Source of the DNA: Micromonospora sp. HM5-17 | Lineage (GTDB): Bacteria; Actinomycetota; Actinomycetes; Mycobacteriales; Micromonosporaceae | Direction: 5' to 3' | Length of the DNA stretch: 64,000 bases | Assembly: GCF_003762835.1 (NCBI RefSeq) | Contig: NZ_RJWA01000006.1 | Location: 310,001-374,000 of the forward strand | Shown here: positions 13,970 to 30,194 of the stretch, one piece after another | Numbering within the stretch: position 1 is the first letter of the stretch | How the letters are laid out: the number at the start of each line of letters is the position of its first letter | The notes under the pieces: model-generated | What the model saw: the letters and a program-made list of their open reading frames with translations, nothing else | What the model was told of the DNA's origin: nothing | Database searches by the model: none | Made by a program: the position numbers and the translations under genes

Positions 13970-14068
13970 GCCGTCGACGAGGGCCGGGACGACCTGTCCG
14001 ACCGCTCCCCGGCCGCTCTCCCGGTTGCCAACCGAGCGCTTCCGTCGCTCCGGCGGGCCGGCGGCGGG

Positions 14069-15262
14069 TCAGGGAACGCGGGCCAGCGCGGGAGCGGGCT
14101 CGGCGTACGTCGGGATCCAGCAGCCGTGGGCCAGCGCGAGCCGGTGGTAGAGGTCCCGGGTGGCGGCCACCAGGCGCGGCGTGCCGAACGCCTCCCGGGC
14201 GTCGGTTTGCGCCGCCTGTCCCATCCGCCGCCGCAGGTCGGCGTCGCCGAGGAGCCGGACCACCGCGCGGCAGAGCCCGTCGACATCGTGCCGGTCACAG
14301 AGCAGGCCGGTGCGCCCGTGCCGGACCACCTCGGCCACCCCGCCGACGTCGGTGGCGACGACGGGCCGCCCCGCCTGGGCCGCCTCGATCAGGGTCAGCG
14401 GCGTACCCTCCTGGTCAGACGTCAGCAGCACCAGATCGGCGGCGGCGTAGACCGTCTCGACGTCGGGCCGCCAGGGCAGGAAGGTCACCGGAAGCGCGTC
14501 GGCGGCCGCCGCCGCGACGGTCGCGGCGAGCCGGTCCCCGGTACCGCAGACGACGAAGCGGGCTTCCGGGACCACCCGGCGTACCGCACGCGCCACGGCC
14601 AACACCCGATCCAGCCGCTTGACCGCGGTGACCGGGCCGACGTACGCCACCACCGGCCCCGGTCCGCCCAGACCCAGCGTCCGCCGGGCCTCGGCCTGCT
14701 CCGGCACCGGTGGCAGACTGACCCCCGGCGGCATCACGGTGTACTGGGCCGGCCGGCCGATCCGGGCGGCGAGGAGTTCGTCACGGACCCGGGCGTTCAC
14801 CGCGACCAGCGCGTGGTTCGTCCGGGCGAGGGCCCACTCGGCGCCGAGGGCGAGCCGGGTCAGGGTGGGCGACCGACGCTCCGCCAGCGGGTGCTCGTGG
14901 AAGCTGTGCACCCGGAGCGGAACCCGGCAGGCGACGGCGGCGATACGGCCCAGCAGCCCGCCACGCAGGTCGTGGGTGTGCACCAGGTCCGGCCGGAACC
15001 GGCGGATCGCCTCGACCAGGGCGGCGAGCGCCCGGAGGTCGTCGGTGGGCCGGGTCGCGCGCCGGAGTTCCGGCAGCAGTCGGATCGGGACGTCGGCGGC
15101 GCCCAGTCGGCGGTAGTCAAGCTCGCCCGGCTCGACCGGGCCGGTGTAGAGCCGCTGCTCGAACCGGTCCGGGTCCAGTCCGCGCAACAGCGCGCCGACC
15201 TGGGGGGCGGCTTCTCCCACGGTCATCCGGGAGATGATCCGCAGCACCCGAAGCGGTCGCAT
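14069..15262 (-). CDS. Family 4-type glycosyltransferase
   Basis: The 397-residue protein has the two-domain GT-B layout. The N-terminus (VLRIISRMTVGEAAPQV) is typical of GT4 acceptor domains, HTHDLRGGLLGR is a typical acceptor-side motif, and YVGPVTAVKRLD starts the donor domain. The EGTPLTLIEAAQAGRPVVATDVGG segment carries the E-x7-E-like donor motif. The enzyme should transfer a sugar from a nucleotide donor, probably at the membrane face. The ATG at 15262 has GAAAGG upstream. It faces the nucleotide-sugar dehydrogenase, so both may act on one glycan, but donor and acceptor are unknown. Confidence 0.87.
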   Translation of the reverse strand: MRPLRVLRIISRMTVGEAAPQVGALLRGLDPDRFEQRLYTGPVEPGELDYRRLGAADVPIRLLPELRRATRPTDDLRALAALVEAIRRFRPDLVHTHDLRGGLLGRIAAVACRVPLRVHSFHEHPLAERRSPTLTRLALGAEWALARTNHALVAVNARVRDELLAARIGRPAQYTVMPPGVSLPPVPEQAEARRTLGLGGPGPVVAYVGPVTAVKRLDRVLAVARAVRRVVPEARFVVCGTGDRLAATVAAAAADALPVTFLPWRPDVETVYAAADLVLLTSDQEGTPLTLIEAAQAGRPVVATDVGGVAEVVRHGRTGLLCDRHDVDGLCRAVVRLLGDADLRRRMGQAAQTDAREAFGTPRLVAATRDLYHRLALAHGCWIPTYAEPAPALARVP

Positions 15263-15920
15263 GTCAGGACCTTTCGCAGTCGCGGCACCTCCGGCCGGCG
15301 GCCATGTCCCGTCGCCCGCCATCGGTGTCGGGATTGAACCATTAATCCTGTTATACCCGTTACTGGCGCTCGTGAACCTGCGATCGGTGAATGAGGAACG
15401 TCGACAGAGGCGGGTCCGGCTCACTCGGCACGCAACGCCCACCCGATTCGCCACCGGTGTGCCCCCCGCCGACCGGAACGGACCAGACCCAGCGACGTCC
15501 GACGACCGGAATGTGGCCGACGGTGGCAACGTCCATCATCGAGTCATCGTGTCGCCGGAGCGGTCGAGCCGGCTTCCCGCGCAATTCGCCGAACCATTCC
15601 TCGACGGTGCGACGTACACATGAATTCGCATTCGTCTCGACGGCGCGGACTCCAGCACCACGGCGCGTCCACCGGCGGCTTCCTGCGCGTACGTAATGCC
15701 CGGACCTTCCGCCTCCACCGACGTCGACCGTCGACGCAGACCCCGTAATCAAGGCTCCACATCAGTGGATTTCCGGCCATGACATCTGTCATGAGTATCC
15801 GTGTACGACGCATATCGGGGGATGACTCAACGCACTGGTGGCGGCTCGGGACCACCCAGGAGACTCTGACGCGTCGATGGATCAGGGTCCCGCAGGGATC
15901 GCCCCGAGGAGCCGCGGACG
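15263..15920. other. 658-nt non-coding interval upstream of the lanthipeptide operon
   Basis: This interval separates the leftward glycosyltransferase gene from the rightward ramC-like gene. No ORF in it has a ribosome binding site or a recognisable product. It contains two AT-richer patches (about 15330-15360 and 15610-15640) that could hold promoters, and a strong inverted repeat at 15778-15793 listed separately. Its length is unusual for this gene-dense window and fits a developmentally controlled promoter region. Confidence 0.6.
15778..15793. promoter_or_regulatory. Perfect 7-2-7 inverted repeat, candidate operator of the ram-like operon
   Basis: CATGACATCTGTCATG reads as two 7-nt arms with a 2-nt centre, 127 nt before the ramC-like start. 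The size suits a dimeric HTH protein such as the RamR-like regulators encoded beyond the operon. Whether it lies within the promoter is not known because no clear -10 was identified. Confidence 0.45.
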
Positions 15921-18719
15921 ATGAACGAACGCTACGACGCGTACTGCGCGGTCGACCCGCTGTTCTACGACTCACTCACCACCGGCAGCGCCACCACCGC
16001 CACCTTCGCGGTCGCCGACCGACCGTTGCCGGCGGGCTGGCGGCGCGAGCCGCACGACGACTGGCTGATGTACGGCCCCGAGGGGGCGACCCTGCCCCCG
16101 CAGGGCTGGAAGATCCACGTCTCCGCCTGTCTCGACAACGCCGAGCGGGTCCTGGCCGCTGTCTGGGACTACTGCGTGCCCCGCGGCCTCTCCTTCAAGT
16201 TCCTCCGTGGCCCCCGGATGCTCCTGCTGCGCAACTCGAAGTACGCCCACCGCGGCTCCAGCGGCAAGTTCGTCACCATCTACCCCCGGGACGAGACCGA
16301 ACTCGAACTGGCCTGCAAGGACCTCGCCGAGCGCCTGGACGGCGAACCCGGTCCGTACATCCTCAGCGACCTGCGGTACGGCGCCGGCCCGGTCTACGTC
16401 CGCTACGGCGGCTTCGCCGCCCGCTACTGCCAGGGCGAGGACGGCCAGGTGGTGCCGGCGATCGAGGATCCGACCGGCACCCTGGTGCCGGACCGGCGCG
16501 ATCCGGTGTTCCAGGTCCCCGCCTGGGTGAGCCTGCCGGCCTTCCTCGGTCCGCACCTCGCCGCCCGCAACGCGACGACCACCGCCGAGCTGCCGTACCA
16601 CATCGAACGGGTCATCCACTTCTCGAACGGAGGGGGTCTCTACGTCGGCCGGGACACCCGGACCGGCACCCGGGTCGTGCTCAAGGAGGCCCGGCCGCAC
16701 GCCGGTCTGGACGCCGAGGGTCGGGACGCCGTCGCCCGGCTGACCCGCGAGGCCGACATGCTGCGCCGGCTCGCCGACGTACCCCAGGTGGCCCGGGTCC
16801 ACGACCAGTTCACCCTCGGCGACCACCACTTCCTCGCGTTGCGGCACGTCGAGGGGCGGGCCCTGAACAAGCTGCTGGTCGAGCGGTACCCGCTGGTGGA
16901 CCCCGACGCCACCGACGCGCGGCTGGCCGCGTACACCCGCTGGGCGATCCGCGTCCACGAGCAGGTGGAGCGGATCATCGACGCGATCGCCGACCGGGGC
17001 ATCGTCTACGGCGACCTGCACCTGTTCAACATCATGGTCGGTGCCGACGACCGGGTGACCCTGATCGACTTCGAGGTCGCCGCGCCGCTCGACGAGGCCG
17101 ACCGCCCCGCCCTGCGCAACCAGGCCTTCGCGGCGCCCCGCGACCGGACCGGCCTCGCCGTCGACCGCTACGCCCTCGCCTGTCTCCGGCTCGCGTTGTT
17201 CCTTCCGCTGACCCAGCTGGTCCGGCTCGCCCCGGCCAAGGCCGCCCACCTCGCCGAGATCATCGGTACGCACTTCCCCGTGCCCCGCGACTTCCTCGCG
17301 CGGGCGGTCGAGGAGATCGTCGGCCACCGCCCGACCGGACCCGACCGCGCGGCGACCACCGGACCGGACCGGATACGCCGCACCGGGCGCCCCGATCCCG
17401 TGCCCGGCGCGGCGTTCGCCGCCGGACGCCGCGGCTGGCCCGGGCTGCGTGCCCAGCTTGCCGGCGCGATCCTGGCCAGCGCCACCCCGGACCGCGACGA
17501 CCGGCTCTTTCCCGGGGACATCGCACAGTTCCGCAGCGGCGGGCTCAACCTCGCCCACGGCGCCGCCGGGGTGTTGCACGCGCTCCACCTCAGCGGCGCG
17601 GGGCGGTTCCCCGAGCACGAGGACTGGCTGGTCAGGCGGGCGCTGAACCCGCCGTCCGGGACCCGGTGCGGGCTCTACGACGGGCTGCACGGGATCGCCT
17701 TCGCCCTGGACGGTCTGGGCCGGCGGCAGGAGGCGCTCGACGTCCTGGACCTCGGGCTCCGACAGCCGTGGCAGGAGCTCGGTCCGGACCTGGCCGGCGG
17801 GTTGTCGGGCATCGCGCTGAACCTCGCCGAGTTCGCCGGCCGGACCGGGGAGCCGGTGCTGCGAGAGGCCGCCTGGCGGGCCGCGGAGCTGGTCGCGGCC
17901 CGGCTCGGCGAGCCCGACCGGGAGCCGGACGAGCGGGGGGACGGCCCGGTGACCGGCTCGGAGGTGAGCGGCGGAGCCAACCCGTACGCCGGACTCACCC
18001 GCGGACGCAGCGGGCCGGCCCTGATGTTCCTCCGGCTGTACGAGCTGACCGGCGACACCACGCTGCTGGACCGGGCCGGCGCCGCGCTCCGGCACGACCT
18101 GCGGCGCTGCGTCCTGCGCCCGGACGGCGCGCTGGAGGTCAACGAGGGCTGGCGGACCATGCCCTACCTGGCGCACGGCAGTGTCGGTATCGGACTCGTC
18201 CTCGACCAGTACCTCCGGCACCGCCCGGAACCCGATCTCGTCGCCTCGGCCCGGGCGATCCGGCGGGCCGCCCTGGCCCCCTTCTACGCCCAGTCCGGAC
18301 TCTTCGCCGGACGGGCCGGCATCATCGCCTACCTGGCGACCCGACTCGCCCAGGCCGGGCCGGGAACCGGCCACGACGACCGGGGCGACGACGACCGGGC
18401 CGACCTGGACGCCCACCTGTCCCGGTTGGCCTGGCACGCGATGCCGTACCAGGATTTTCTCGCCTTCCCCGGCGAACAGCTGCTGCGACTGTCGATGGAT
18501 CTCGCCACCGGTACGGCGGGCGTGCTGCTCGCCGCCGCGGCGGCCTGGCACGACCGGCCGGTGACCCTGCCGTTTCTCGCGCCGCTCACCGGCGCGACCA
18601 AGCTCCCTCCGCCCGCGCGGGGGGCACGTGGAGACCGGGACCCGAGGGGAGGTGGACAACATGGCGCTTCTGGACCTGCAGGGCATGGAGCTGACCCCGG
18701 CCGACCGCGGTGGCGGTGA
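15921..18719 (+). CDS. ramC: Class III lanthipeptide synthetase (RamC/AmfT-like LanKC)
   Basis: The 932-residue length matches RamC. The N-terminal ~230 residues correspond to the phosphothreonine/serine lyase domain. The kinase domain follows, with a VLKEARPH Lys, the catalytic loop VYGDLHLFNIM (Asp365) and DFE at 383. The C-terminal cyclase-like domain has LYDGLHGIAF, GRSGPALMFLRLYELTG and LAHGSVGIGL but lacks the Cys-Cys-His zinc ligands (AHG instead of CHG), which places it in class III rather than IV. It should phosphorylate, dehydrate and cyclise the peptide encoded by the overlapping downstream gene. The last ~45 residues are non-conserved and lie over the precursor start. Confidence 0.93.
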   Translation: MNERYDAYCAVDPLFYDSLTTGSATTATFAVADRPLPAGWRREPHDDWLMYGPEGATLPPQGWKIHVSACLDNAERVLAAVWDYCVPRGLSFKFLRGPRMLLLRNSKYAHRGSSGKFVTIYPRDETELELACKDLAERLDGEPGPYILSDLRYGAGPVYVRYGGFAARYCQGEDGQVVPAIEDPTGTLVPDRRDPVFQVPAWVSLPAFLGPHLAARNATTTAELPYHIERVIHFSNGGGLYVGRDTRTGTRVVLKEARPHAGLDAEGRDAVARLTREADMLRRLADVPQVARVHDQFTLGDHHFLALRHVEGRALNKLLVERYPLVDPDATDARLAAYTRWAIRVHEQVERIIDAIADRGIVYGDLHLFNIMVGADDRVTLIDFEVAAPLDEADRPALRNQAFAAPRDRTGLAVDRYALACLRLALFLPLTQLVRLAPAKAAHLAEIIGTHFPVPRDFLARAVEEIVGHRPTGPDRAATTGPDRIRRTGRPDPVPGAAFAAGRRGWPGLRAQLAGAILASATPDRDDRLFPGDIAQFRSGGLNLAHGAAGVLHALHLSGAGRFPEHEDWLVRRALNPPSGTRCGLYDGLHGIAFALDGLGRRQEALDVLDLGLRQPWQELGPDLAGGLSGIALNLAEFAGRTGEPVLREAAWRAAELVAARLGEPDREPDERGDGPVTGSEVSGGANPYAGLTRGRSGPALMFLRLYELTGDTTLLDRAGAALRHDLRRCVLRPDGALEVNEGWRTMPYLAHGSVGIGLVLDQYLRHRPEPDLVASARAIRRAALAPFYAQSGLFAGRAGIIAYLATRLAQAGPGTGHDDRGDDDRADLDAHLSRLAWHAMPYQDFLAFPGEQLLRLSMDLATGTAGVLLAAAAAWHDRPVTLPFLAPLTGATKLPPPARGARGDRDPRGGGQHGASGPAGHGADPGRPRWR

Positions 18720-18801
18720 CGGTGGGTGTGGCTGCGGCGGCAGCCGGGCGAGCCTGCTGCTCTGCGGCGACAGCTCGCTGTCCGTGACGACCTGCAACTG
18801 A
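18661..18801 (+). CDS. ramS: SapB-like class III lanthipeptide precursor (RamS/AmfS homologue, 46 aa)
   Basis: The 46-codon ORF starts at an ATG with GGGGAGGTG 8 nt upstream and overlaps the end of the synthetase gene by 59 nt in another frame. The leader holds the LLDLQGMEL box, the class III leader helix recognised by LanKC. The C-terminus SRASLLLCGDSSLSVTTCN carries two S-x2-S-x3-C ring motifs. As I recall the Streptomyces coelicolor RamS core, it differs within this segment only by Val for Ile. The product should be a secreted, surfactant-like morphogenetic peptide. An extra CGCGG stretch just before the core is unlike RamS. Confidence 0.95.
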   Translation: MALLDLQGMELTPADRGGGDGGCGCGGSRASLLLCGDSSLSVTTCN

Positions 18802-18875
18802 GCAGCGCGCGTCCGGCCCTGGGCGGGAGGGAGTTGCCCGCCCAGGGCCCTCCGGCGGCGAAGGGGGGTGGCACG

Positions 18876-20663
18876 ATGGCCGGCGCCGGCGACCGGCTGC
18901 TGTGCCGGACGATCGGGTACGGCGGTGGCTGGACCGTCGTCCTCGCCCTCGCCGCGCTGCTCGGGGCCGGGGCGGAACTGCTGCTCCCGGTGACGCTCGG
19001 GCTGGCCGTGGACGCCGCGCTTGGCACGGCCGACCACCGGTGGCCGCTGGCCGCCGGTGGACTCGTCCTGCTCATCGTCGCCACCGACACCCTGGGCAGC
19101 CTGGCCGATGGGGCCGGCACCGCCCGAGCCACCGCCCGGCTGCGGCAGCGACTGCTGCGACACCTGCTCGCCCTCGACCCCCGGGCCGCCGCCCGGCATT
19201 CGGTGGGCGACCTGATCGGACGGCTGGTCGGCCAGGCGGCCGACGCCGGTCGGGCCGGCACCACGCTCGTCTCGGGCGTCACCGCGGCGCTTCCGCCGCT
19301 GGGCAGCGTCGCCGCGCTCGCCCTGCTGGACTGGCGCCTCGCCGCGACCTTCCTCGCCGGCCTGCTGCTGCTCGCCGCCGGGCTGCGGACCTTCGTCACC
19401 GACGCCTCGGCCGCCGCCGCCGGGTACCTCACCGTGCAGGGCCAGCTCGCCGGACGGCTGGCCGAGGCGTTGCGGGGCGCCCGAACCATCGCCGCCGCCG
19501 GCACCGTCCCCGCCGAGGTCGCCCGGATCCTGGCCCCGCTGCCGCGGCTGGGCTGGCACGGGGCGCGTACCTGGACGGCGCTCGCCCGGGCCGCCGCGCG
19601 GACGGCGGCGGTCGCCCCACTCCTGCACCTGGCGGTCGTCGCGGTCGGCGGCTGGTCGGTGGCTCAGGGGCGGCTCAGCCCCGGGCAGCTCGTCGCCGCG
19701 GCGCAGTACGCCGCGCTCGGCGCCGGCCTCGGCGCGGTCGTGGCCACCCTCAACCGGCTGATCCGCACCCGTACCGGGGCACACCGGGTCGCGGCCATCC
19801 TGGCCGAACCGGTGCTCCCGTACGGTACGGCGACGCTGCCCGCCGGGGGTGGCCGGCTGGAGCTGGTGGGGGTGACGGTCCGCGCCGACGACGGCCGGCC
19901 GGTGCTGACCGGGATCGATCTGAGGGTGCCGGCCGGCGACACGCTCGCGGTGGTCGGCCCCTCGGGCGCGGGCAAGTCGACGCTGGCGGCGGTCGCCGGA
20001 CGGCTCCGCGACCCCGACGCCGGCGAGGTCCTGCTGGACGGGGTACCGCTGCGCACGTTGAGCCGCACCGCCCTACGCCGCGCCGTCGGGTACGGCTTCG
20101 AGCGTCCCGTCCTGGTCGGGACGACCGTGGCGGACGTCGTCACCCTCGGCGCGGCGGTCCGGCCGAACCGGGCCGACCCGGCCGGGCCGGCCCGGGCCGC
20201 CGCCGTCGACGACGTCGTCGAACGGCTGCCCCGCGGGTACGCCACCCCGCTCGACGACGCGCCGATGTCCGGCGGCGAGATCCAGCGTCTCGGGCTGGCC
20301 CGCGCGCTCTACGCCGACCGGCTGCTCATCCTCGACGACGCGACGTCCAGCCTGGACACGGCCACCGAACACCGGATCACCCGGTCGGTCACCACCCACC
20401 GCGACCGCCGTACCCGGCTCGTGGTGACCCACCGGGCGGCCACGGCGGCCGCGGCCGACCTGGTCGCCTGGCTCGACGGCGGTCGGCTGCGCGCGGTGGG
20501 GCGGCACCGCGACCTGTGGCGGGACGCGGCCTACCGCGCCGTCTTCCAGGCGGCGCCGGAGCCGGGCGCCGGCACCGGGCCGACGCTCCGGCCCGCTCCG
20601 GGACCGCACGTCGGGACGCCGGCCGGTGACCCGGACACGGCGGCATCCGGGGCGACCCGGTGA
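18876..20663 (+). CDS. ramA: Lanthipeptide ABC exporter half-transporter (RamA-like)
   Basis: The 595-residue protein has an N-terminal six-helix membrane domain and a C-terminal ATPase with Walker A GPSGAGKSTL, signature MSGGEIQRLGLARAL, Walker B LLILDDATSSLD and H-loop VVTHRA. The catalytic glutamate after Walker B is replaced by aspartate, so its composite ATP site may be slow or silent. The ATG at 18876 was chosen because AAGGGGGGTGG precedes it. It lies 74 nt after the precursor gene and overlaps the next half-transporter, with which it should form a heterodimer exporting the modified peptide. Confidence 0.9.
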   Translation: MAGAGDRLLCRTIGYGGGWTVVLALAALLGAGAELLLPVTLGLAVDAALGTADHRWPLAAGGLVLLIVATDTLGSLADGAGTARATARLRQRLLRHLLALDPRAAARHSVGDLIGRLVGQAADAGRAGTTLVSGVTAALPPLGSVAALALLDWRLAATFLAGLLLLAAGLRTFVTDASAAAAGYLTVQGQLAGRLAEALRGARTIAAAGTVPAEVARILAPLPRLGWHGARTWTALARAAARTAAVAPLLHLAVVAVGGWSVAQGRLSPGQLVAAAQYAALGAGLGAVVATLNRLIRTRTGAHRVAAILAEPVLPYGTATLPAGGGRLELVGVTVRADDGRPVLTGIDLRVPAGDTLAVVGPSGAGKSTLAAVAGRLRDPDAGEVLLDGVPLRTLSRTALRRAVGYGFERPVLVGTTVADVVTLGAAVRPNRADPAGPARAAAVDDVVERLPRGYATPLDDAPMSGGEIQRLGLARALYADRLLILDDATSSLDTATEHRITRSVTTHRDRRTRLVVTHRAATAAAADLVAWLDGGRLRAVGRHRDLWRDAAYRAVFQAAPEPGAGTGPTLRPAPGPHVGTPAGDPDTAASGATR

Positions 20664-22537
20664 GAGAGGTCCTGCGGTTCACCGCCGGGGCACTGCGCCG
20701 TCGGGGCCGGCCGCTCGCCCGGCTCGGCGCGTGGTCGGCCGCGGAGGCGCTGCCGGTGCTGCTCACCGGCCATGCCACCGCCCGTGCCGTGGACGAGGGC
20801 TTCCTGGCCGGCCGACCGGGGGTCGGACTGGGCTGGCTGGGCGTACTGGCCGTCGCGATCGGCGTCGGTGCGGTGGCGACCGGACGGACCTACGCATGCC
20901 TCGGCGTGATCGTGGAACCGGTCCGCGACGACCTCGCGCGCCGGGTCGTCGCGGGGGCGCTGCACCAGGCCACCGCCGCCGGCGCCCGGCCGTCCGACAC
21001 CGCCCCCGTGGCCCGGTTGACCCACCAGGTGGAGATCGTCCGGGACACCTTCGCCGGGTTGGTGATGGTGGTCCGGGGTTTCCTCGTCACCGCCGGGGCG
21101 GCGCTGCTCGGCCTGGTCTCGCTCACCCCGGTCGTCACCGGGGTGGTCGCGGTGCCGCTGGTAGCCGGTCTGCTCCTCTTCGTCGCCACCCTGCCGACGA
21201 TGGCCGACCGGCAGCGGGCGTACGTGCACGCCGACGAGCGGCTGGGCGCCGAGGTGGGCGCCGCGCTCGCCGGACACCGGGACGTGACCGCGTGCGGCGG
21301 GCAGGACGTCGTGGCCGAGCAGGTGGGCCGGCAGGTGGCCCGCCAGGCCGAGGCCGAGCGCGGACTGGCCCGGATGGCCGCGCTGCGCAGCCTGATCCTC
21401 GCGGTCGGCGGATGGCTCCCCCTGGCGGCGCTGCTGGTCGCGGCCCCCTGGCTGGTCCGTACCGGGCTCAGCGCGGGTGCGCTGCTCGGCGCCCTGGTGT
21501 ACGTCGCCACCGGGCTGCAACCGGCGCTGCACTCGCTGGTGCAGGGGGTGGCCGGAGGCGGCCTGCGGTTCGCCGTCACCCTGGACCGGATCCTCGCCGC
21601 CACCGGGGCACCGCCGCCCGCGCCGACCACCGGCCCGTCGGCCGCCCCCGCCCGGGGCGCGACCGGGCCACGGGCGGCGGGCGAGGGGCGGGTCGTACCC
21701 CGACCGGCCGCTGCCCTGCCCGCCGCCCGACCGTCCGGGGCGAACGGACCCGTGCCGGTGCCCGACGCGGAACTCCGCAGCGTCACCGTCCGGTACGGCC
21801 CACACGCCCGGCCCGTCCTGGACAACCTGGACCTGACTCTTCCGCCGGGCGAGCACCTGGCGGTGGTGGGACCGAGCGGTGTCGGGAAGTCCACCCTGGC
21901 CGTGGTGCTCGCGGGACTGCTCCCACCCCGGGCGGGGACCGTGCGGCTCGACGGTGCCCCGGTCGACGGCCTCGACCCGGCCGCGCTGGCCGCCCGCCGG
22001 GTTCTCATCCCGCAGGAGGCGTACGTCTTCACCGGAACGCTGTGGGAGAACCTCCGCTACCTCAACCCGGACGCCGACGAGGCGGCGGTGGCGGCAGCCG
22101 TGGCCGCCCTCGGGGTGGAGCCGCTGGTGAACCGGGTCGGCGGGCTCGCCGCGCCGGTGGATCCGGGAGCGCTCTCCGCCGGGGAGCGACAGCTGGTCGC
22201 CGCCGCCCGTGCCTACCTCTCCCCCGCGCCGCTGGCGATCCTCGACGAGGCCACCTGTCACCTGGATCCGGCGGCCGAGGCGAGGGTGGAGGCCGCCTTC
22301 GCGGCCCGGCCCGGCACGCTCGTGGTTGTCGCGCACCGGATCAGTTCGGCGCTCCGGGCCCGCCGGGTGCTGATCCTCGAGGACGGCCGGGCACTCCTGG
22401 GCCGGCACGACGAACTGCTGGCGCGTTCGGCGACCTACCGGGCTCTGGTCGGGCACTGGCACGGCGAACCGGACCTGAGGGCGGCGACACCGGCCGGCTC
22501 CCGGCCGGCACCGGTGGCGACCGACCCCGGGCGGTAG
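20660..22537 (+). CDS. ramB: Lanthipeptide ABC exporter half-transporter (RamB-like)
   Basis: The 625-residue partner starts at a GTG overlapping the upstream stop (GTGA). It has six membrane helices, a 60-residue Pro/Ala linker, and an ATPase domain with Walker A GPSGVGKSTL, Q-loop PQEAYVF, Walker B LAILDEATCHLD with the catalytic Glu present, and H-loop VVAHR. The signature motif reads LSAGERQ instead of LSGGQ. Together with the upstream protein it makes a heterodimeric exporter with one canonical and one weakened site. The gene order synthetase-precursor-transporter-transporter equals ramCSAB of Streptomyces. Confidence 0.9.
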   Translation: MREVLRFTAGALRRRGRPLARLGAWSAAEALPVLLTGHATARAVDEGFLAGRPGVGLGWLGVLAVAIGVGAVATGRTYACLGVIVEPVRDDLARRVVAGALHQATAAGARPSDTAPVARLTHQVEIVRDTFAGLVMVVRGFLVTAGAALLGLVSLTPVVTGVVAVPLVAGLLLFVATLPTMADRQRAYVHADERLGAEVGAALAGHRDVTACGGQDVVAEQVGRQVARQAEAERGLARMAALRSLILAVGGWLPLAALLVAAPWLVRTGLSAGALLGALVYVATGLQPALHSLVQGVAGGGLRFAVTLDRILAATGAPPPAPTTGPSAAPARGATGPRAAGEGRVVPRPAAALPAARPSGANGPVPVPDAELRSVTVRYGPHARPVLDNLDLTLPPGEHLAVVGPSGVGKSTLAVVLAGLLPPRAGTVRLDGAPVDGLDPAALAARRVLIPQEAYVFTGTLWENLRYLNPDADEAAVAAAVAALGVEPLVNRVGGLAAPVDPGALSAGERQLVAAARAYLSPAPLAILDEATCHLDPAAEARVEAAFAARPGTLVVVAHRISSALRARRVLILEDGRALLGRHDELLARSATYRALVGHWHGEPDLRAATPAGSRPAPVATDPGR

Positions 22538-22766
22538 CGCCCGCGCGGCCGGCGCGGAGCACCCGGCGGCGACCGGGGTGGCCGGGTCATGGAGCACCCG
22601 GGGTTGGCCGCCCTGGGACGGCCGGCCGGTACCCGGCGACCGGATCCGCCGCGGCGGGCGGCTGGTCGGCGTCCTGGCGTACCGGGTGACATCGGGCGTG
22701 GCACACCGTGCGCCCGGTCGTCGTCGGGGCGGGCGGGGACACGGTGCGCCGGGGTGGGGCCCCGGG

Positions 22767-23366
22767 TCAGATCCAGCCCTCCTCACGGGCGATCCGGATC
22801 GCCTCGATCCGGGTCCGGGCGCCGGTCTTCCCGACGATCCGGGACAGGTGGTTCCGGACCGTTCCCGGCGAGAGCGAGAGCTTGCTGGCGATCTCCAGCA
22901 CCGGCCATCCCTCGGCGGCGATCTCCAGCACCTCCACCTCCCGGCGGGTGAGCGGGTTGGCCCGGCTCAGCGCCGCCACGACGAGCTCGGCATCCACGAC
23001 GGCACCACCGGTGGCGAGCCGACGTACGGCGTCGACCAGCCGTTCCGGCGCGACGTCGTTCCCGAGGAACCCGAGCCGTCGGCCCGGGGCGCGCAGGGCG
23101 TCGCCGAGGACCCGGGGCCGGCGCGGGTCGACCAGCACGAGCACCGGCGGCGGTTCGACGGACGCGTTCCGTCCGGACAGGACACCGGTTCCGAGGAACG
23201 TGACGTCGGTGACCGCCACGTCGGGACGCTGCGCCCGGAGTGCCGGAGCGACGTCCTCGGCCCGCTCCACCTCCGCGACGACCTCGATGTCCCTCTGCAT
23301 GGTCAGTACGAAGGCCAGGGCTCCCCGCACGAGGGCCCCGTCGAGCGCGAGCAGCGTCCGAATCAC
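22767..23366 (-). CDS. LuxR-type (NarL/FixJ) regulator with degenerate receiver, RamR-like paralogue 1
   Basis: The 199-residue protein has a receiver-like N-terminal domain and a C-terminal LuxR HTH (LTRREVEVLEIAAEG, LSLSPGTVRNHLSRIVGKTGA). The receiver keeps an Asp at VAVTD but lacks the acidic pair near the N-terminus (LALDG) and the conserved Lys (FLGND), so classical phosphorylation is unlikely. The GTG at 23366 (VIRTLLALDG) with GGGGT upstream fits the family start better than a longer frame to 23420. It lies directly beyond the ramB-like gene in opposite orientation. RamR in Streptomyces is an orphan regulator of the same type, so control of this operon is the likely role. Confidence 0.85.
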   Translation of the reverse strand: MIRTLLALDGALVRGALAFVLTMQRDIEVVAEVERAEDVAPALRAQRPDVAVTDVTFLGTGVLSGRNASVEPPPVLVLVDPRRPRVLGDALRAPGRRLGFLGNDVAPERLVDAVRRLATGGAVVDAELVVAALSRANPLTRREVEVLEIAAEGWPVLEIASKLSLSPGTVRNHLSRIVGKTGARTRIEAIRIAREEGWI

Positions 23367-23504
23367 GTCTACCCCAGCACGTTGTCGACAGAGGATCACT
23401 AAGCGTAAACATCTAAACACGAACAGCCCCGATACGCCCGGCGATGCGGCCGGGACCGGAGCGCCCGGTCGGCCTCACCGGCCGCGGCGCCACCCGGGCA
23501 CCGG

Positions 23505-24104
23505 TCAGAGCCAGCCGGCGCGCTGGGCCCGCCGTACCGCCTCCAGCCGGTTCCGCGAGCCGGTCTTGCGGAGGATCACCGAGAGGTGGTTGCGCACCGT
23601 GCCGTGCGCGAGAAAGAGCCGACGGGCGATCTCCTTCAACGGCAGTCCCTCGGCCACGATCCGCAGTACCTCCCGCTCCCGCTCGGTCAGCGGACCGGCC
23701 GACGGGGTGAGTGCGGCGACCGCCGCGACGGGGTCGACCACGCGCTCCCCGGCCGCCACCGCGCGCACCAACCGGGTCAACTCGGTCGGCGGCAGGTTCT
23801 TGGTGACGAACCCCCGGGCACCTGCCCGCAGGGCCCGTTGCAGCATCTCCGGCGACGGCTGGCTGCTCAGCGTCAGCACGGCGCTCTCCGGCACCTCCGC
23901 ACCGAGCCGCGCCACCGCGGCGAGCGTGTCCGGCCGGTCCATGTCGACCACCACCACGTCCGGCCGCCGCGCGCGGGCGACCGGGACGAGGCCGTCGGGC
24001 TCCTGAAGGTCGGCCACCACCTCGAGGTCGTCCTCACGCGACAACATCGCGCACAGCGCGCGGCGCAGCAGGCCCATCTCCTCCACGATCACCACGCGGA
24101 TCAT
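23505..24104 (-). CDS. ramR: LuxR-type (NarL/FixJ) regulator, RamR-like paralogue 2
   Basis: Also 199 residues, this regulator has a receiver domain with an acidic pair (VIVEEMG), a possible phosphoacceptor Asp in VVVVDMD, Ser in LTLSS and Lys in FVTKNLPP. Its HTH (LTEREREVLRIVAEG, LAHGTVRNHLSVILRKTGSRNRLEAVRRAQRAGWL) closely parallels that of its neighbour, so the two arose by duplication. The ATG at 24104 has CGGAGTG upstream. No histidine kinase is nearby. It keeps more receiver residues than paralogue 1 and is the better candidate for the RamR/AmfR activator. Confidence 0.85.
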   Translation of the reverse strand: MIRVVIVEEMGLLRRALCAMLSREDDLEVVADLQEPDGLVPVARARRPDVVVVDMDRPDTLAAVARLGAEVPESAVLTLSSQPSPEMLQRALRAGARGFVTKNLPPTELTRLVRAVAAGERVVDPVAAVAALTPSAGPLTEREREVLRIVAEGLPLKEIARRLFLAHGTVRNHLSVILRKTGSRNRLEAVRRAQRAGWL

Positions 24105-24538
24105 GAGGTCACTCCGATCTGGTACCACGTCCTGCGACGGTCAACGACGTCCGTCCGGCGCATCCGGACGGAGCGGGTCACGAACCCCGGTCCGGGTGGC
24201 ACCGCCGGTCCGGAGGGGCGGGTCGCGGACGGACTGCGCACGCACCGCGCGGGCCGGGGCAGCGGACCAGCGCGCGGCCGACGCACCGGCCCGACGCGGG
24301 TGGCCGAGCGGCTGATCAGCCGGGAAGGAGGGGCACGCCGGGTCGCGGCGGAACACCGCGCCTGACCGCTACCGGGCCGCGCCGCACTGCTGACACCGCT
24401 GCCATGTCGCGAGGGGCCCGCCGAGATAGGCGAACAGGTACCACAGCGTAACTCCGCGTCTACCATGACGCACGTCTGGAGCGCCGGCGGCGGCTCGCGG
24501 GCACCGCGACCACCGGTCACGGCGGCTATCGTGGTCCG
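24105..24538. other. 434-nt interval between regulator and aminotransferase
   Basis: This divergent intergenic region holds no supported gene. At its right end TATCGT (24527-24532) lies six bases before the aminotransferase ATG, a spacing typical of a leaderless transcript. The rest is GC-rich with no clear repeat or operator. Confidence 0.45.
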
Positions 24539-25738
24539 ATGCCGGCATCCATGCCGCCCACACTGCCCATCGTGCAGTTTCGCGCCGCGGCGGAGACCAT
24601 CGACCTCGGGTGGGGACATCCACACCCGGCGGCGCTGCCGGTCGACGGTTGGGCCGAGGCGACGCACTCCGCCCTGCGCCGGTACGGCGCCGCCATGCTG
24701 ACGTACGGCCACGCCCCCGGGCCGGGACCGCTGATCGAGTGGCTGTGCCACCGACTCGCCGAGGTGGACGGTGCCGCGCCGGACCCGACGCACCTCTTCG
24801 TCACCGCGGGCGCCTCACACGCGTTGGACCTGGTCACCGCGTTCCTCTGCCGCCCGGGCGACGTCGTCCTGGTCGACTCGCCCACGTACCATCTCGCCCT
24901 GCGGATCATCGCCGACCACCGGGTCGACATCGTGCCGGCCCCGACCGGCCCGGACGGCATCGATGCGGTCGCCACCACCGACCTGGTACGGGCACTGCTC
25001 CGGCAGGGACGACGGGTCCCGATGCTCTACCTGGTGCCGACCTTCAACAACCCGACCGGACGGTCGCTGCCGCCCGCCGTCCGGGCCGACCTGGTCGAGG
25101 CGGCCCGGCGCACCGGGGTCACCCTGGTCGAGGACGACACCTACCGGGAACTCGCCTATCCCGGGCCGGCACCACCCTCGCTGTTCAGTGCCGCCGAGAC
25201 CGGCACGGTGGTGCGCATCGGCTCGTTCGCCAAGTCCGTCGCGCCCGGCCTGCGGCTGGGCTGGGTGACCGCCGCCGCCCCGGTGGTCCGGGCGCTGACG
25301 GCACGCGGCTACGTCGACAGCGGCGGTGGGGTGAACCACGCGAACGCCCTGATCCTGGCCGAGTTCGCGACGCTCGGTCTCTACCGGCGGCACGTCGAGG
25401 CGATCCGGGTCCGCTACGCCGCACAGCGCGACGCCCTGGTCGCGGCGGTCCGTCGGCGGCTGCCGCAGGCCGAGTTCACCGTGCCCGCGGGCGGATGGTT
25501 TCTGTGGCTGCGCCTACCCGAGGAGGCCGCGGGCACCCGACTGCTGCCGTACGCGGAACGGGCCGGAGTCTCCTACCTGCCCGGGAACCAGTTCCACGTG
25601 GCCGACACCGGGCACCGGTACCTCCGGCTGTCGTTCTCGCTCTTCGACCCGGAGACGCTGGCGGAGGCGGCACGGCGGCTCGGTGCGGCGTATCGGAGCG
25701 CTGGTCTCTCCGGGGCATCGGCACGGATTAGCCCCTGA
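24539..25738 (+). CDS. PLP-dependent aminotransferase, class I/II (MocR-like without HTH)
   Basis: The 399-residue enzyme shows the fold-type I pattern: TAGASHALDL for phosphate binding, DSPTYHLAL, FNNPTGRSL with the PLP-contacting Asn, VEDDTYREL with the ring-nitrogen Asp and Tyr, the Schiff-base Lys232 in SFAKSVAPGLRLGW, and YLRLSFS with the substrate Arg. The sequence resembles the aminotransferase half of MocR proteins and 2-aminoadipate aminotransferases (LysN type). The substrate is unknown. A TATCGT element six bases before the ATG suggests leaderless translation. It converges with the asparagine-synthetase-like gene. Confidence 0.88.
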   Translation: MPASMPPTLPIVQFRAAAETIDLGWGHPHPAALPVDGWAEATHSALRRYGAAMLTYGHAPGPGPLIEWLCHRLAEVDGAAPDPTHLFVTAGASHALDLVTAFLCRPGDVVLVDSPTYHLALRIIADHRVDIVPAPTGPDGIDAVATTDLVRALLRQGRRVPMLYLVPTFNNPTGRSLPPAVRADLVEAARRTGVTLVEDDTYRELAYPGPAPPSLFSAAETGTVVRIGSFAKSVAPGLRLGWVTAAAPVVRALTARGYVDSGGGVNHANALILAEFATLGLYRRHVEAIRVRYAAQRDALVAAVRRRLPQAEFTVPAGGWFLWLRLPEEAAGTRLLPYAERAGVSYLPGNQFHVADTGHRYLRLSFSLFDPETLAEAARRLGAAYRSAGLSGASARISP

Positions 25739-25834
25739 CCCAAAGATGCCGCGCGCCGGCCGTTCCACCGGTCCCGGCCGCCACCCTCGGCACGTCGTCG
25801 GCCCCTGACCCTCCTGATCGTTCCCGGTCGGGCG

Positions 25835-27421
25835 TCAGTCCTCCCGGCCCGTCCCGGTCAGCCGGCGGACGACCGGGCCGACGCGCCACCGGGCGGCCCC
25901 GGCCAGGTCCCGGGCGTGTTCGAACACCGTGTGGTCCGGCCGGGCCCGACCCTCCGCCAACGCCCGGTCCAGGTCGTGGCCGCACCGGGTCAGGACCGTG
26001 TCGAGGTCCCGCCGCATCGGGCCGTACAGCGCGTAGCCGAAGGACCGGTGGAACCGGGCAAAGAGCGGCCGGTAGAGCCGGATCCGCTCGTACAGCCCCG
26101 ACCCGTACGCCAGGGGGCTCGCCGGTCGCTCACGGATATCCCGGGGCAGCAGGTCGGCGAAGGCGTGGCGCAGGATCCACTTCTCCCGACCGTGCCGCAT
26201 CCTCAGCTCGCGGGGCAGCCGGGTCGCGAGTTCCACCATGGCCGGATCGAGGAACGGCACCCGCGCCTCGACGCCGTGCCCGAGCCCGACCCGGTCGATC
26301 CGCTGGAGTTCGGTCCGGCAGAGATTTTTGATCTTGTAAAGGTAGAGCCGGCGGGCCGCCTCCGGGTTGACCTGGTGGTAGGTCGGATATCCACCGAAGA
26401 GCGTGTCGGCGCCGTCCCCGGTCAGGACCACCCGTACCCCGAGATCGTGGACCCGACGGAACAGCGGCACCGAGACGACGGCATCGCACACGTCGCCGTA
26501 CTCGGTCGGCTCGATCATCCGGACGGCTTCCCGGACGTCCTCGAGCCCGAGGTCGCGGGGCCGCACCTCGATCGTCTCGTGGTGCACCCCGAGCGCGGCG
26601 GCGAGCCGCCGGGCGTACCGGAGGTCCGGACTGTCGGGAGCGCCAACGGTGAACGCGACGCAGTCGTGGTGGAGTTGGCGGGCGTACAGCAGGACGAGGG
26701 TGCTGTCCAGGCCGCCCGAGAACGGCACCCCCACGGTGAGGTCGGTCTCCACCCGGATCCGGACGCTCTCCTGGAACGCCGCGCGGAGCAGCCGCGCCGC
26801 CTCGGTCGGGTCGGCGAGCACCGGCTTCCCCGCGCCGAACAGCGCGAGATCCCGGTACGGGACCAGGTCGGGACCGGTGCCGGCGTCGGCCCAGCCGTGC
26901 TGCCCGGGCGGTACCTCGTGAATCGGCGCGTTGAGCGGCACCAGCGCCTTGACCTCGGAGGCCACGTACAGCCGGCGAAGGCGACGCGCCCAGTAGAGCG
27001 GCCGGACGCCGAGCGGATCCCGGGCCAGGTAGAGCCGCCCGGTGACGGTGTCGGCGATCGCGATCGCGAAGTCGCCGCGCAGCCGGTCGACCGCGGCCGG
27101 ACCCCAGGCCAGGAACGCCTCCAGCACCACCTCGGTGTCGCTCTCGGTACGCATCCGCCGCCCGAGGCGAGCCAGCTCGGCCGCGAGCTCCCGGTGGTTG
27201 TAGACCTCGCCGTTGTAGCAGAGCAGCCAGCGGCCGTCCGCCGAGCACCAGGGCTGCCGGGCACGGTCGCGGTCGACGATCCGCAGGCGCTGCACGCCGG
27301 CCAGCAGATCCGGTCGGTGCCGGGTCTCGGCGAGGTCCCCCCGCGGTGCCAGGGCCGCCAGCATCCGCTGGAAGGTGGGGCGGTCGGCGCCCGGGCCGAG
27401 AACGAGGGCGAGGCCGGACAC
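25835..27421 (-). CDS. Asparagine-synthetase-like ATP-dependent amide ligase lacking the glutaminase Cys
   Basis: The 528-residue protein has the two-domain AsnB layout. The N-terminal Ntn-type glutaminase domain keeps LCYNGEVYNH and TESDTEVVLEA, but the nucleophile Cys2 is replaced by Ser (Met-Ser-Gly), so normal glutamine hydrolysis is not expected. The synthetase domain has the PP-loop SGGLDS at 235-240 and LTGDGADTLFGGYPTY, so ATP adenylation chemistry should work. The GTG start is fixed by the Met-x-Gly pattern and the GGGGGGTGAGC site. It starts 3 nt after the stop of the upstream peptidase-like gene. Possible roles are ammonia-dependent amidation or amide ligation on a peptide or envelope substrate. 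Confidence 0.8.
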   Translation of the reverse strand: MSGLALVLGPGADRPTFQRMLAALAPRGDLAETRHRPDLLAGVQRLRIVDRDRARQPWCSADGRWLLCYNGEVYNHRELAAELARLGRRMRTESDTEVVLEAFLAWGPAAVDRLRGDFAIAIADTVTGRLYLARDPLGVRPLYWARRLRRLYVASEVKALVPLNAPIHEVPPGQHGWADAGTGPDLVPYRDLALFGAGKPVLADPTEAARLLRAAFQESVRIRVETDLTVGVPFSGGLDSTLVLLYARQLHHDCVAFTVGAPDSPDLRYARRLAAALGVHHETIEVRPRDLGLEDVREAVRMIEPTEYGDVCDAVVSVPLFRRVHDLGVRVVLTGDGADTLFGGYPTYHQVNPEAARRLYLYKIKNLCRTELQRIDRVGLGHGVEARVPFLDPAMVELATRLPRELRMRHGREKWILRHAFADLLPRDIRERPASPLAYGSGLYERIRLYRPLFARFHRSFGYALYGPMRRDLDTVLTRCGHDLDRALAEGRARPDHTVFEHARDLAGAARWRVGPVVRRLTGTGRED

Positions 27422-27424
27422 CGC

Positions 27425-28390
27425 TCACCCCCCGAGCGCGGTCAGGAAGTCTCGGCGGAGCCGGGCCACGGCCCGCGGGCTGACGCAGACGTGCCAGTAC
27501 TGCCCCTCGTCGATCACGTTCACGTCCCCCCAGCCCTGGCGTTCCCGCAGCAGTGCGGCGAGGACGCCGTACGCGTCGAGGCGGCGGAACCAGGACATCT
27601 CCAGGTCCATCGCGTAGCCGAGACAGTGGCCGCTGGGCAGCATCGCGACGTAGCCGAGGGCGCGGAGCCGTTGCTGGTGTTCGAGGCTTCGCGCCAGGCT
27701 CGTCACCCACAGCGGCGGGGTGGGACCCGTACGGCGTCGCGCGAGGTCGACGGCGAGCTGGTTCAGCAGCGCCACCACCTCCGGCCGCGTCCAGGTGGAC
27801 CGGAGGCCGTCGGCCTGCGGTCTGCGGTGCGGCCAGATCCGGCGTTCGACCGCCCGGCCCACCCGGGCGAGCGGGCGGCCGGTCTGCCGGCGGTACCGGA
27901 ACCGGATCAGCCCGCCGCGGCGCAGCGCCTCCAGGTCGATCAGCTCCGGTGCCTCCCGGAGCTCCGTGTCGGTCTGGTACCCGGGCAGGTGCCCCCACCA
28001 CAGGACGTCGATCCGAGAGAGGAGGTAGATCCTGATCAGGTCGGAGAGGTCCCGGGCCACGCCGCGGTTGTTCGGCCGGTAGTCCCGGACCTCGGCGCGG
28101 AGCCGCGCGGCCGCCTCCGCGGTTCCACCGGGCAGCGCGTCGAGCACCGCGGCGATCTCGGGGGCCGTCAGCCGATCGGTCAGCACCGCCTCAAGCCTGG
28201 CCAGGTTGTCGACACCGGCGTAGGCCGCCACCTCCCCACGCAGGTCCGCGACCGCGGCCCGGTACCGGACCAGATCGGACAGCGGGAGGGTCGGATGGTG
28301 CGGCGGGCGTGACCGGGCGCCGGCGTCGGGGCGCCGCCCGTCCTCCGGTGTCCGAGGGTCGGCGTCCCGGGCACCCTCGTGGCTCGGCAT
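27425..28390 (-). CDS. Putative LAS/M15-like metallopeptidase (DUF5715-like)
   Basis: The 321-residue protein is not closely recognised, but residues 253-262 read SGHCLGYAMD, an exact match to the S-x-H-x2-G-x-A-x-D zinc motif of LAS (VanY/M15) peptidases. Glu295 and His300 in DEGQYWH could supply the catalytic base and last zinc ligand. The first ~35 residues are polar and disordered, and no signal peptide is visible. LAS enzymes cut D-amino-acid or peptidoglycan peptide bonds, but a cytoplasmic location would be odd for that. The ATG at 28390 has GGGGGAG upstream. It is co-transcribed with the asparagine-synthetase-like gene. Confidence 0.65.
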   Translation of the reverse strand: MPSHEGARDADPRTPEDGRRPDAGARSRPPHHPTLPLSDLVRYRAAVADLRGEVAAYAGVDNLARLEAVLTDRLTAPEIAAVLDALPGGTAEAAARLRAEVRDYRPNNRGVARDLSDLIRIYLLSRIDVLWWGHLPGYQTDTELREAPELIDLEALRRGGLIRFRYRRQTGRPLARVGRAVERRIWPHRRPQADGLRSTWTRPEVVALLNQLAVDLARRRTGPTPPLWVTSLARSLEHQQRLRALGYVAMLPSGHCLGYAMDLEMSWFRRLDAYGVLAALLRERQGWGDVNVIDEGQYWHVCVSPRAVARLRRDFLTALGG

Positions 28391-28461
28391 CTCCGACTCT
28401 CCCCCGATTGGACGTGGTGCAGAGCGTGGACGTGACTCAACAGCGCCACCGAATCGGACAG

Positions 28462-28473
28462 TATCACCTGATA
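28462..28473. promoter_or_regulatory. 5-2-5 inverted repeat upstream of the peptidase/ligase pair
   Basis: TATCACCTGATA forms two 5-nt arms in an AT-rich patch (about 28460-28495), 72 nt before the 28390 start on the minus strand and 204 nt before the arabinofuranosidase on the plus strand. It could be an operator for either unit. The short arms make chance occurrence possible. Confidence 0.3.
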
Positions 28474-28676
28474 AAGGGAAAACACGGATTATTTCGGTTG
28501 GGCGCCTCGGCCCGTCTCCGCTCCTCCACCCTCGCCCGGTGCACGTCCGCCGGCCGCGCCGTCGACCGACGTGGTCCGGTCGGTCGCACCGCCGGCCACG
28601 CCGACGGCCCTCCGGCCGGCCGAACGTGTCACGATCGACAGGTTCACCGTGGCACCCCGAAGGAGGGCACCCCCTG

Positions 28677-30194
28677 ATGCCGAACCAGGCCCCGGTCACC
28701 ATCACCCTCGACCCGCACCTCCGGCTCGGAACCATCGACCGTCGGATCTTCGGCTCCTTCGTGGAGCACCTGGGCCGGGCGGTCTACACCGGGATCTACG
28801 AGCCCGGACACCCGACGGCGGACGCGTACGGCTTCCGCCGCGACGTCGCCGAACTCGCCACGGAGCTGGGGGTCACACTGCTGCGGTACCCGGGCGGCAA
28901 CTTCGTGTCGAGCTACCGGTGGGAGGACGGGATCGGGCCGGTGGCCGAACGCCCGCGCCGGCTCGACCTGGCGTGGCGCACCCTGGAGAGCAACCGGGTC
29001 GGCACCGACGAGTTCCTCTCCTGGTGCCGCCGGCTGGGTGTGGAGCCGATGATGGCGGTCAACCTCGGTACCCGGGGCATCGAGGCCGCCGCCGACCTGG
29101 TCGAGTACTGCAACATCCCGGGCGGCACCACGCTCTCGGACCGGCGGCGGTCCAACGGCAGCCCGGAGCCGTACGGGGTCAGGCTCTGGTGCCTGGGCAA
29201 CGAGATGGACGGGCCGTGGCAGGTCGGTCGGCGCGACGCCGACGAGTACGGCCGTCTCGCCGCCCGCGTGGGCCACGCGATGCGCCGGGTCGACCCGACC
29301 ATCGAACTGGTCGCCTGCGGTAGCTCCGGCCGGCAGATGCCGACCTTCGGAGCCTGGGAACGGACCGTTCTGGAGCACACCTACGAGGTCGCCGACTACC
29401 TCTCCCTGCACGCGTACTACGAGGAACACGACGGCGACCGGGCCAGCTTCCTCGGCTCCGGGGCCGCGATGGACAGGTTCATCGCCGACGTGATCGCCAC
29501 CGCGGACAGCGTCGGGGCCCGGCTGGGCAGCCCGAAGCGGATGAAGCTGTCGTTCGACGAGTGGAACGTGTGGTACATGTCCGAGACCACACCGGTCGAC
29601 ACCTCCGCGATCCTCCCGGAGGGGTCCCGGCTCTTCGAGGACCGCTACCGGCTGCTGGACGCGGTGGTGGTCGGCGACCTGTTGATCACCTTGCTCAATC
29701 ACGCGGACCGGGTCCGGGTCGCCTGCCTGGCGCAGCTGGTCAACGTCATCGCCCCGATCGCCACCGAGCCGGGGGGTGACGCCTGGCGGCTGGCGACGTT
29801 CTACCCGTTCGCCCACACGGCCCGGGCAGCCCGGGGCACGGCCCTGCGGCCGGTTGTGGAGACGCCGACCCTCGAGACCGCCCGACACGGCGAGGTGCCG
29901 GCCACCAGCTGCGCGGCCACCTACGACCCGGACGAGGGCACGGCGGCGGTCTTCCTCGTCAACCGGACCGACCGGCCGGTGACGGCACGGCTGCGTCACC
30001 CGGACTTCCCGGGCTGGACGGTGGCCGGCTGCGCGAGCATCGTGGCGGACCACGGGGGAAAACTGGTCACCGCCGAGGCCGCCCGGGCGGCCGAACCGGT
30101 GGAGCACCGGAACGTCCGCCCCGGCGCCGCGCAGACCGAGGTCGACCTCGCACCCGAGTCGTGGACGGTGCTCCGGATCCGGGTCGGTGAGTAG
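28677..30194 (+). CDS. Alpha-L-arabinofuranosidase, glycoside hydrolase family 51
   Basis: The 505-residue enzyme cleaves terminal arabinofuranosyl residues from arabinan, arabinoxylan or their oligosaccharides. The acid/base Glu176 lies in CLGNEMDGPW and the nucleophile Glu295 in SFDEWNVWY, as in GH51. The N-terminal IFGSFVEHLGRAVYTGIYEP and the RYPGGNFVSSYRWEDG segment are typical for the family. No signal peptide is present, so it acts in the cytoplasm on imported oligosaccharides. The ATG at 28677 has AAGGAGGG 9 nt upstream. No arabinose transporter is adjacent; the sugar importer at 6628-10948 is too distant to link. Confidence 0.95.
   Translation: MPNQAPVTITLDPHLRLGTIDRRIFGSFVEHLGRAVYTGIYEPGHPTADAYGFRRDVAELATELGVTLLRYPGGNFVSSYRWEDGIGPVAERPRRLDLAWRTLESNRVGTDEFLSWCRRLGVEPMMAVNLGTRGIEAAADLVEYCNIPGGTTLSDRRRSNGSPEPYGVRLWCLGNEMDGPWQVGRRDADEYGRLAARVGHAMRRVDPTIELVACGSSGRQMPTFGAWERTVLEHTYEVADYLSLHAYYEEHDGDRASFLGSGAAMDRFIADVIATADSVGARLGSPKRMKLSFDEWNVWYMSETTPVDTSAILPEGSRLFEDRYRLLDAVVVGDLLITLLNHADRVRVACLAQLVNVIAPIATEPGGDAWRLATFYPFAHTARAARGTALRPVVETPTLETARHGEVPATSCAATYDPDEGTAAVFLVNRTDRPVTARLRHPDFPGWTVAGCASIVADHGGKLVTAEAARAAEPVEHRNVRPGAAQTEVDLAPESWTVLRIRVGE

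Follow-up and report, generated by a model that had tools for sequence, protein, structure and literature searches.

A SapB-type lanthipeptide gene cluster with two regulators in a Plantactinospora genome in which chaplins were not detected

The 64,000-nucleotide stretch analysed here (the window; positions 310,001–374,000 of contig NZ_RJWA01000006.1 of Micromonospora sp. HM5-17) carries at 15921–24104 what is very probably an intact ramCSAB-type gene cluster for the production and export of a SapB-like class III lanthipeptide. SapB is the textbook surfactant of Streptomyces aerial growth and is thought to work with chaplins. The SapB type predicted for the cluster is supported by its family-model matches, its core sequence and its gene order. 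The first-pass annotation had placed a complete SapB-type class III cluster here, and all six genes were found at that place, intact and matched by family models. The proposed order of a synthetase, a 46-aa precursor, two ABC half-transporters and opposite-strand LuxR-type regulators was also confirmed. The genes and the promoter elements are as follows.

15779–15792, + strand: palindrome ATGACATCTGTCAT (TGACN4GTCA), candidate regulator site, 141 bp before LanKC; footprint in Plantactinospora
15822–15836, + strand: second conserved promoter element ATGACT-N5-CACT, from upstream-region alignments
15921–18719, + strand: class III lanthionine synthetase LanKC (RamC-like), 932 aa; NF038151, PF25816 RamC_N, Pkinase, LANC_like
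18661–18801, + strand: precursor peptide (RamS-like), 46 aa, core GSRASLLLCGDSSLSVTTCN; PF19402, NF033212
18876–20663, + strand: ABC half-transporter A (RamA-like), catalytic Walker B residue Asp; PF00664, PF00005
20660–22537, + strand: ABC half-transporter B (RamB-like), catalytic Walker B residue Glu; PF00005
22767–23366, − strand: regulator R1, LuxR-type helix-turn-helix (HTH) and degenerate receiver-like part; PF00196
23505–24104, − strand: regulator R2, receiver and LuxR-type HTH, RamR-like; PF00072, PF00196

LanKC scored 1112.5 bits against the NCBIfam class III LanKC model NF038151 (cut-off 575), and 382 bits against the class IV model, which is below the cut-off of 650. Pfam RamC_N (PF25816) was matched with an E value of 4.9e-85, and Pkinase and LANC_like were above their cut-offs. 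It is the one LanKC above the family cut-off in the whole host genome. The precursor (full sequence MALLDLQGMELTPADRGGGDGGCGCGGSRASLLLCGDSSLSVTTCN, 46 aa) was matched by Pfam RamS (PF19402; E 1.2e-16, 61.3 bits, cut-off 24.3) and by NCBIfam SapB_AmfS (NF033212; 61.9 bits, cut-off 25). Thus, the precursor is not a chance open reading frame (ORF). Transporter B is above the cut-off of PF00005 and just below that of PF00664 (26.8 bits, cut-off 28). The matches of R1 are of the GerE/HTH kind only: PF00196 (GerE) above the cut-off and, besides it, Sigma70_r4_2. Against each of five other Plantactinospora, dN/dS was 0.32–0.35 for LanKC, 0.21–0.27 for R1 and 0.21–0.32 for R2. These values indicate purifying selection on the three genes, and the cluster appears to be without signs of decay.

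The cluster resembles ramCSAB-ramR of S. coelicolor (SapB) and amf of S. griseus (AmfS) in its synthetase, precursor, two ABC half-transporters and convergent regulator. The cores compared residue by residue are those of S. inhibens and other fetched sequences, not that of S. coelicolor. Differences from the Streptomyces ram/amf clusters are the leader MALLDLQGM with a Gly-rich linker, the extra R1 and a host without detected chaplins. The claim that the ram/amf organisation is reproduced held for gene order and families, but the second regulator lineage was unseen in the Streptomyces loci examined. The Micromonospora and Verrucosispora SapB clusters share the order, the two regulators and nearly the same core; they differ in that some have two or three precursor copies, the linker is without Cys, and one Micromonospora group has only half of the palindrome. 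The class III clusters of Glycomyces, Phytomonospora, Amycolatopsis and their kin share the gene frame, the leader start MALLDLQGM and a LanKC on the neighbouring branch of the tree, but have other, longer cores such as SSASGHSCPSNLS...

The host genome (6.17 Mb, 51 contigs, 96% complete) belongs to Plantactinospora in GTDB terms, within Micromonosporaceae. Its genus holds six other genomes of 8.3–9.8 Mb. The family membership that had been supposed was borne out, since the genus contains Plantactinospora endophytica (NZ_BONW01000009.1), which carries the cluster locus. RamS-like precursors (E ≤ 0.001) were found in 131 of 354 family genomes, including 7/7 in the host's genus and 80 of the 162 genomes taken as Micromonospora (G144–G305; every listed one is g24, G301–G305 are unlisted, and we infer the single-genus status). 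The E value is above 1e-9 for 25 of the 131 matches, which may be other RamS-like cores; the cross-table tally gave 23 such matches (g24 E values were not entered), and G176 and G193 were added to make 25. Among 37 named Micromonospora, Verrucosispora and Plantactinospora loci, the full order LanKC-precursor-A-B-R1-R2 is present in 31. The contig ends first in five of the other six, and the sixth, Micromonospora sp. ATCC 39149, is without precursor and A. In ATCC 39149 (L054:9001–13830) the LanKC frame is open to 1609 aa, only a piece of B is found, and R1 and R2 are present; the locus looks like a deletion inside the cluster.

The core carries two units of the S-x-x-S-x3-C motif of SapB-type peptides, SRASLLLC and SSLSVTTC. 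The predicted [M+H]+ of the 20-residue core minus four waters is 1911.905; one additional Gly would bring it to 1968.927, and a retained linker would make the peptide longer. The core is one residue (V/I) off those of S. inhibens and others that were fetched. A SapB-type core is present in 34 of the 37 named loci; M. okii has another core, ATCC 39149 has none, and one contig ends too early. Fourteen of the 20 core positions are invariant across 59 copies (54 from Micromonosporaceae including the window, 5 from Streptomyces), which are kin and not independent; a sixtieth copy, one from M. haikouensis without Gly before the core, was excluded. Tandem precursor copies (two or three) with slightly different cores were observed in L058, L060, L068 and other family loci. 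The linker of the window precursor (18709–18744) has two Cys (GGCGCGG), each one base away from a Gly codon, and the other six Plantactinospora are without them. The precursor start overlaps the LanKC end by 59 nt in a different frame. The overlap as a genus trait was rejected, because gaps of 15–19 nt were measured in five other Plantactinospora; an overlap of 68 nt occurs in G306, from another genus.

The synthetases are less alike than the cores. LanKC identity between SapB-core Streptomyces and Micromonosporaceae is 51–58%, and the window LanKC, within this range, is not sister to the Streptomyces ones. The SapB-core LanKCs are not one clade: the best constrained tree was 77 log units worse (approximately unbiased (AU) test, p 0.0056), and p was 0.0085 after removal of two long rows. 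Both the LanKC tree and the regulator tree come from quick searches, with branch support by the Shimodaira–Hasegawa-like approximate likelihood ratio test (SH-aLRT) only, and the LanKCs were cut at 900 aa. These results indicate that two synthetase lineages which are not sisters carry almost the same 20-residue core. Because the SapB-core LanKCs are not one clade, the core is either ancestral and was replaced several times, or was exchanged long ago. A recent core transfer between Streptomyces and Micromonosporaceae is disfavoured by the codons at core position 13: AGC is used in 5/5 Streptomyces copies and TCG in 53/54 others (a Gly codon in one), and the two Ser codons differ at all three bases. 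Codon identity is 0.73 in the core (0.51 expected; 8 × 5 pairs) and 0.56–0.68 in LanKC (about 0.60 expected; 6 × 5 pairs), so that the surplus over expectation is greater in the core. From this surplus an old exchange of the core between the two groups is possible, and fixed Ser codons may be a partial cause of it. The accessible text of PMC4255298 describes the amf-cluster genes as unusually diverged; this holds for the synthetases, not for the core.

The RamR-like regulator seems to be accompanied by one of a second lineage, whose receiver is degenerate. In the regulator tree, which carries long-branch warnings, R1 and R2 fall into two lineages (SH-aLRT 97 for the separating branch). R2 groups with 13 Streptomyces regulators (SH-aLRT 91), and R1 groups with the single regulators of Glycomyces, Phytomonospora, Planosporangium, Allorhizocola, Jidongwangia and one Catenulisporales metagenome-assembled genome. 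The fetched Streptomyces loci have one regulator each in 13 of 15; the other two are too short. Three regulators (one each from L064, L068 and L071) were dropped before the tree search as they are not downstream neighbours. M. haikouensis R2 and ATCC 39149 R1 were missed in the ORF step, and these loci were counted as single-regulator in the tree though both regulators are present. Of the 32 R1-position proteins, 31 retain the phospho-acceptor Asp, but all 32 have lost both the first acidic residue and the Lys, and 31 have lost the Ser/Thr. In the R2-position proteins, the Asp is kept in 20/32 and the Lys in 27/32; the window R2 retains all the receiver residues (E, E, D, S, K). Because PMC4255298, in its accessible part, reports ramR in streptomycetes only, the RamR kinship of R2 is put forward as a reading of the tree.

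The palindrome scan covered 85 loci with enough upstream DNA. Of the 42 loci from Micromonospora, Verrucosispora and Plantactinospora, 27 have TGACN4GTCA at −135 to −141 before LanKC, against 0.1 of 42 after shuffling; one Amorphoplanes locus has it at −132. Four of the 15 loci without the exact palindrome have one mismatch; the other 11 are one Micromonospora group, which retains the right half and the second element. In the window the palindrome is the only site within 2 mismatches, and its longer 33-base form occurs once in the genome. In six Plantactinospora loci, among them that of the window, the DNA upstream of the two regulator genes contains no palindrome within one mismatch. A consensus scan of 15300–24700 gave no promoters or terminators, and an Rfam scan of 14000–26000 gave no match.

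Regarding export, the catalytic Walker B position was read as Asp in A and Glu in B in 28/31 and 24/26 copies of the Micromonospora group, 5/15 and 9/9 copies of Streptomyces, and 18/24 and 21/23 copies of the other loci, the rest being unread by the pattern. The asymmetry holds wherever the motif is readable, and fits a predicted heterodimeric exporter with one degenerate site.

No match to the Pfam chaplin model (E ≤ 0.001) was found in the host genome, in which all 35 candidates were scored. Because 14 default control genomes also gave no match, extra controls were run. With every candidate scored, the model was matched in 12/12 named Streptomyces (best E 4.1e-26 or lower), in 15/18 of the other named actinomycetes that have a LanKC locus and in 0/18 named Micromonospora, Verrucosispora and Plantactinospora. 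With up to 17 candidates scored per genome (all 35 in the host), chaplin matches were obtained in 140 of the 354 family genomes, but in 0/7 of the host's genus and 0/162 of those taken as Micromonospora. Both SapB-like precursors and chaplins are present in 31 of the 354 genomes, SapB-like precursors only in 100, chaplins only in 109 and neither in 114 (Fisher p 3e-6; the test takes no account of kinship, and its result is mostly due to one large genus). There is no strict exclusion between the two, since in g4 (Actinoplanes-type, including Amorphoplanes auranticolor) 13 of 18 SapB-positive genomes carry chaplins. Diverged chaplins beyond the reach of the Pfam model are possible.

The established biochemistry of SapB is the basis for the following steps on LanKC, export and leader removal. 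By analogy, LanKC would phosphorylate and eliminate the core serines and close two lanthionine rings, one per S-x-x-S-x3-C unit. The A/B heterodimer would then export the peptide, and the leader would be removed by a protease encoded outside the cluster; no protease gene is present among the six cluster genes. R2, perhaps modulated by R1, would switch on the operon via the TGACN4GTCA promoter site. Where chaplins are undetected, we tentatively propose, at somewhat less than even chances, that the peptide acts without a partner at the colony–air interface, where it would be a surface-active substance that coats or wets hyphae or spores.

The cluster is ordinary in kind: SapB clusters are known in the family, and that of the host is a further member. 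According to the accessible part of PMC9011353, SapB homologues in Micromonospora and Verrucosispora are published. The question of the role of SapB in a family without conspicuous aerial mycelium is likewise already in print in the accessible text of PMC5765111, where almost half of the Micromonospora genomes have a sapB cluster, yet none of the strains formed aerial hyphae. This last observation weighs against a first alternative, in which the peptide aids the sterile or rare aerial hyphae of some family members, as in Streptomyces but without chaplins. The same text cites sterile aerial hyphae in Micromonospora, and PMC9011353, in the part accessible, counts Micromonospora among the aerial-hyphae-forming bacteria; however, chaplins were undetected, and we regard this alternative as unlikely, though worth keeping in mind. 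It is improbable that the cluster goes back to an ancestor with aerial mycelium and is now kept as a silent or useless relic: the patchy distribution (80 of the 162 presumed Micromonospora genomes) and the decay in ATCC 39149 speak for it, but the precursor is intact in 7/7 genus genomes, and purifying selection, the conserved promoter site and the nearly invariant core speak against it. An antimicrobial or signal peptide in place of a surfactant is very improbable, for although lantibiotic kinship, the nearly invariant core and the selectivity of a related morphogen peptide for some Streptomyces (accessible text of PMC13380574), which could mean perception over wetting, would agree with it, the core nearly matches those of SapB-type peptides from Streptomyces, and the six genes include no evident addition such as one for a dedicated immunity protein.

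Several points weigh against the proposal of a SapB-like cluster producing a surface-active coat. The product, transcript and phenotype of the cluster are predictions from sequence. The RamR-like identity of R2 depends on a quick tree with its long-branch warnings, and the palindrome is a candidate site whose assignment to R1 or R2 is presumed. The two extra Cys in the linker of the window precursor could alter the ring pattern or processing. In addition, the core of M. okii is a different one, and ATCC 39149 lost precursor and A.

A broader idea, which we hold to be speculative and rather unlikely, is that SapB at its root is an old sequence-specific surface peptide and not a chaplin helper. 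It would act alone in Plantactinospora and Micromonospora, on substrate hyphae or spores and under a two-regulator switch, and the chaplin partnership in Streptomyces would be later or dispensable. This idea is based on a core that stayed nearly the same on two synthetase lineages, in genera where chaplins are detectable and in genera where they are not, whereas the cores of neighbouring lineages changed. The literature on SapB-type specificity, as far as the accessible texts go, is divided. Either SapT or a fungal hydrophobin rescues a mutant deficient in SapB (PMC4255298), but durhapeptin affects only some Streptomyces and had no activity on S. coelicolor or S. griseus (PMC13380574). For S. 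coelicolor, SapB and chaplins are both proposed as needed on rich medium (PMC5650626, accessible part). A complete cluster with a near-identical core in hosts without detected chaplins would make the function of SapB itself separable from its partner, and the second regulator and the promoter palindrome provide handles on the timing of cluster expression. SapB presence with chaplin absence in the family, the second regulator lineage and the palindrome were not found in the accessible parts of the literature searched (PMC4255298, PMC5765111, PMC9011353, PMC10868606, PMC13380574 and PMC5650626; most subscription papers lie outside it).

Within the genus, the loci differ downstream of ramB.

L031:15977–17452, L121:11107–12603, L122:11293–12771, L124:10965–12443, cluster strand: carbamoyltransferase, NodU/CmcH-type; also in L123 and L125

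This gene (PF02543, PF16861) follows ramB in 6/6 other Plantactinospora fetched, with 90–94% identity to the L124 copy. It lies directly after ramB on the same strand in 4/6, and in L123 and L125 an opposite-strand ORF of 190–194 aa lies between. R1 and R2 are located 1.6–4.2 kb after ramB in 5/6, and are absent from the 4.7 kb fetched beyond ramB in L122. No carbamoyltransferase was found near the cluster in the other 79 named loci, and the host genome gave no match to it; the ramB–R1 interval in the window is 229 bases. The carbamoyltransferase is possibly a tailoring enzyme or a passenger.

Three flanking genes were rejected as cluster parts and are genus neighbourhood. The UDP-glucose dehydrogenase and glycosyltransferase had no match among 80 named loci, and the MppQ-like aminotransferase had only three, of 35–39% identity. 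The former two are near the cluster in L122, and the latter in L124 and L125. At 24539–27421 of the window, next to the cluster, the pyridoxal-phosphate-dependent aminotransferase has its best NCBIfam match, at 311.9 bits (cut-off 540), to the enduracididine biosynthesis protein MppQ, and an asparagine synthase-like gene is above the cut-off of TIGR01536; these genes may form another small pathway. A 436-aa ORF at 27425–28735 has a sub-threshold DUF5715 match only.

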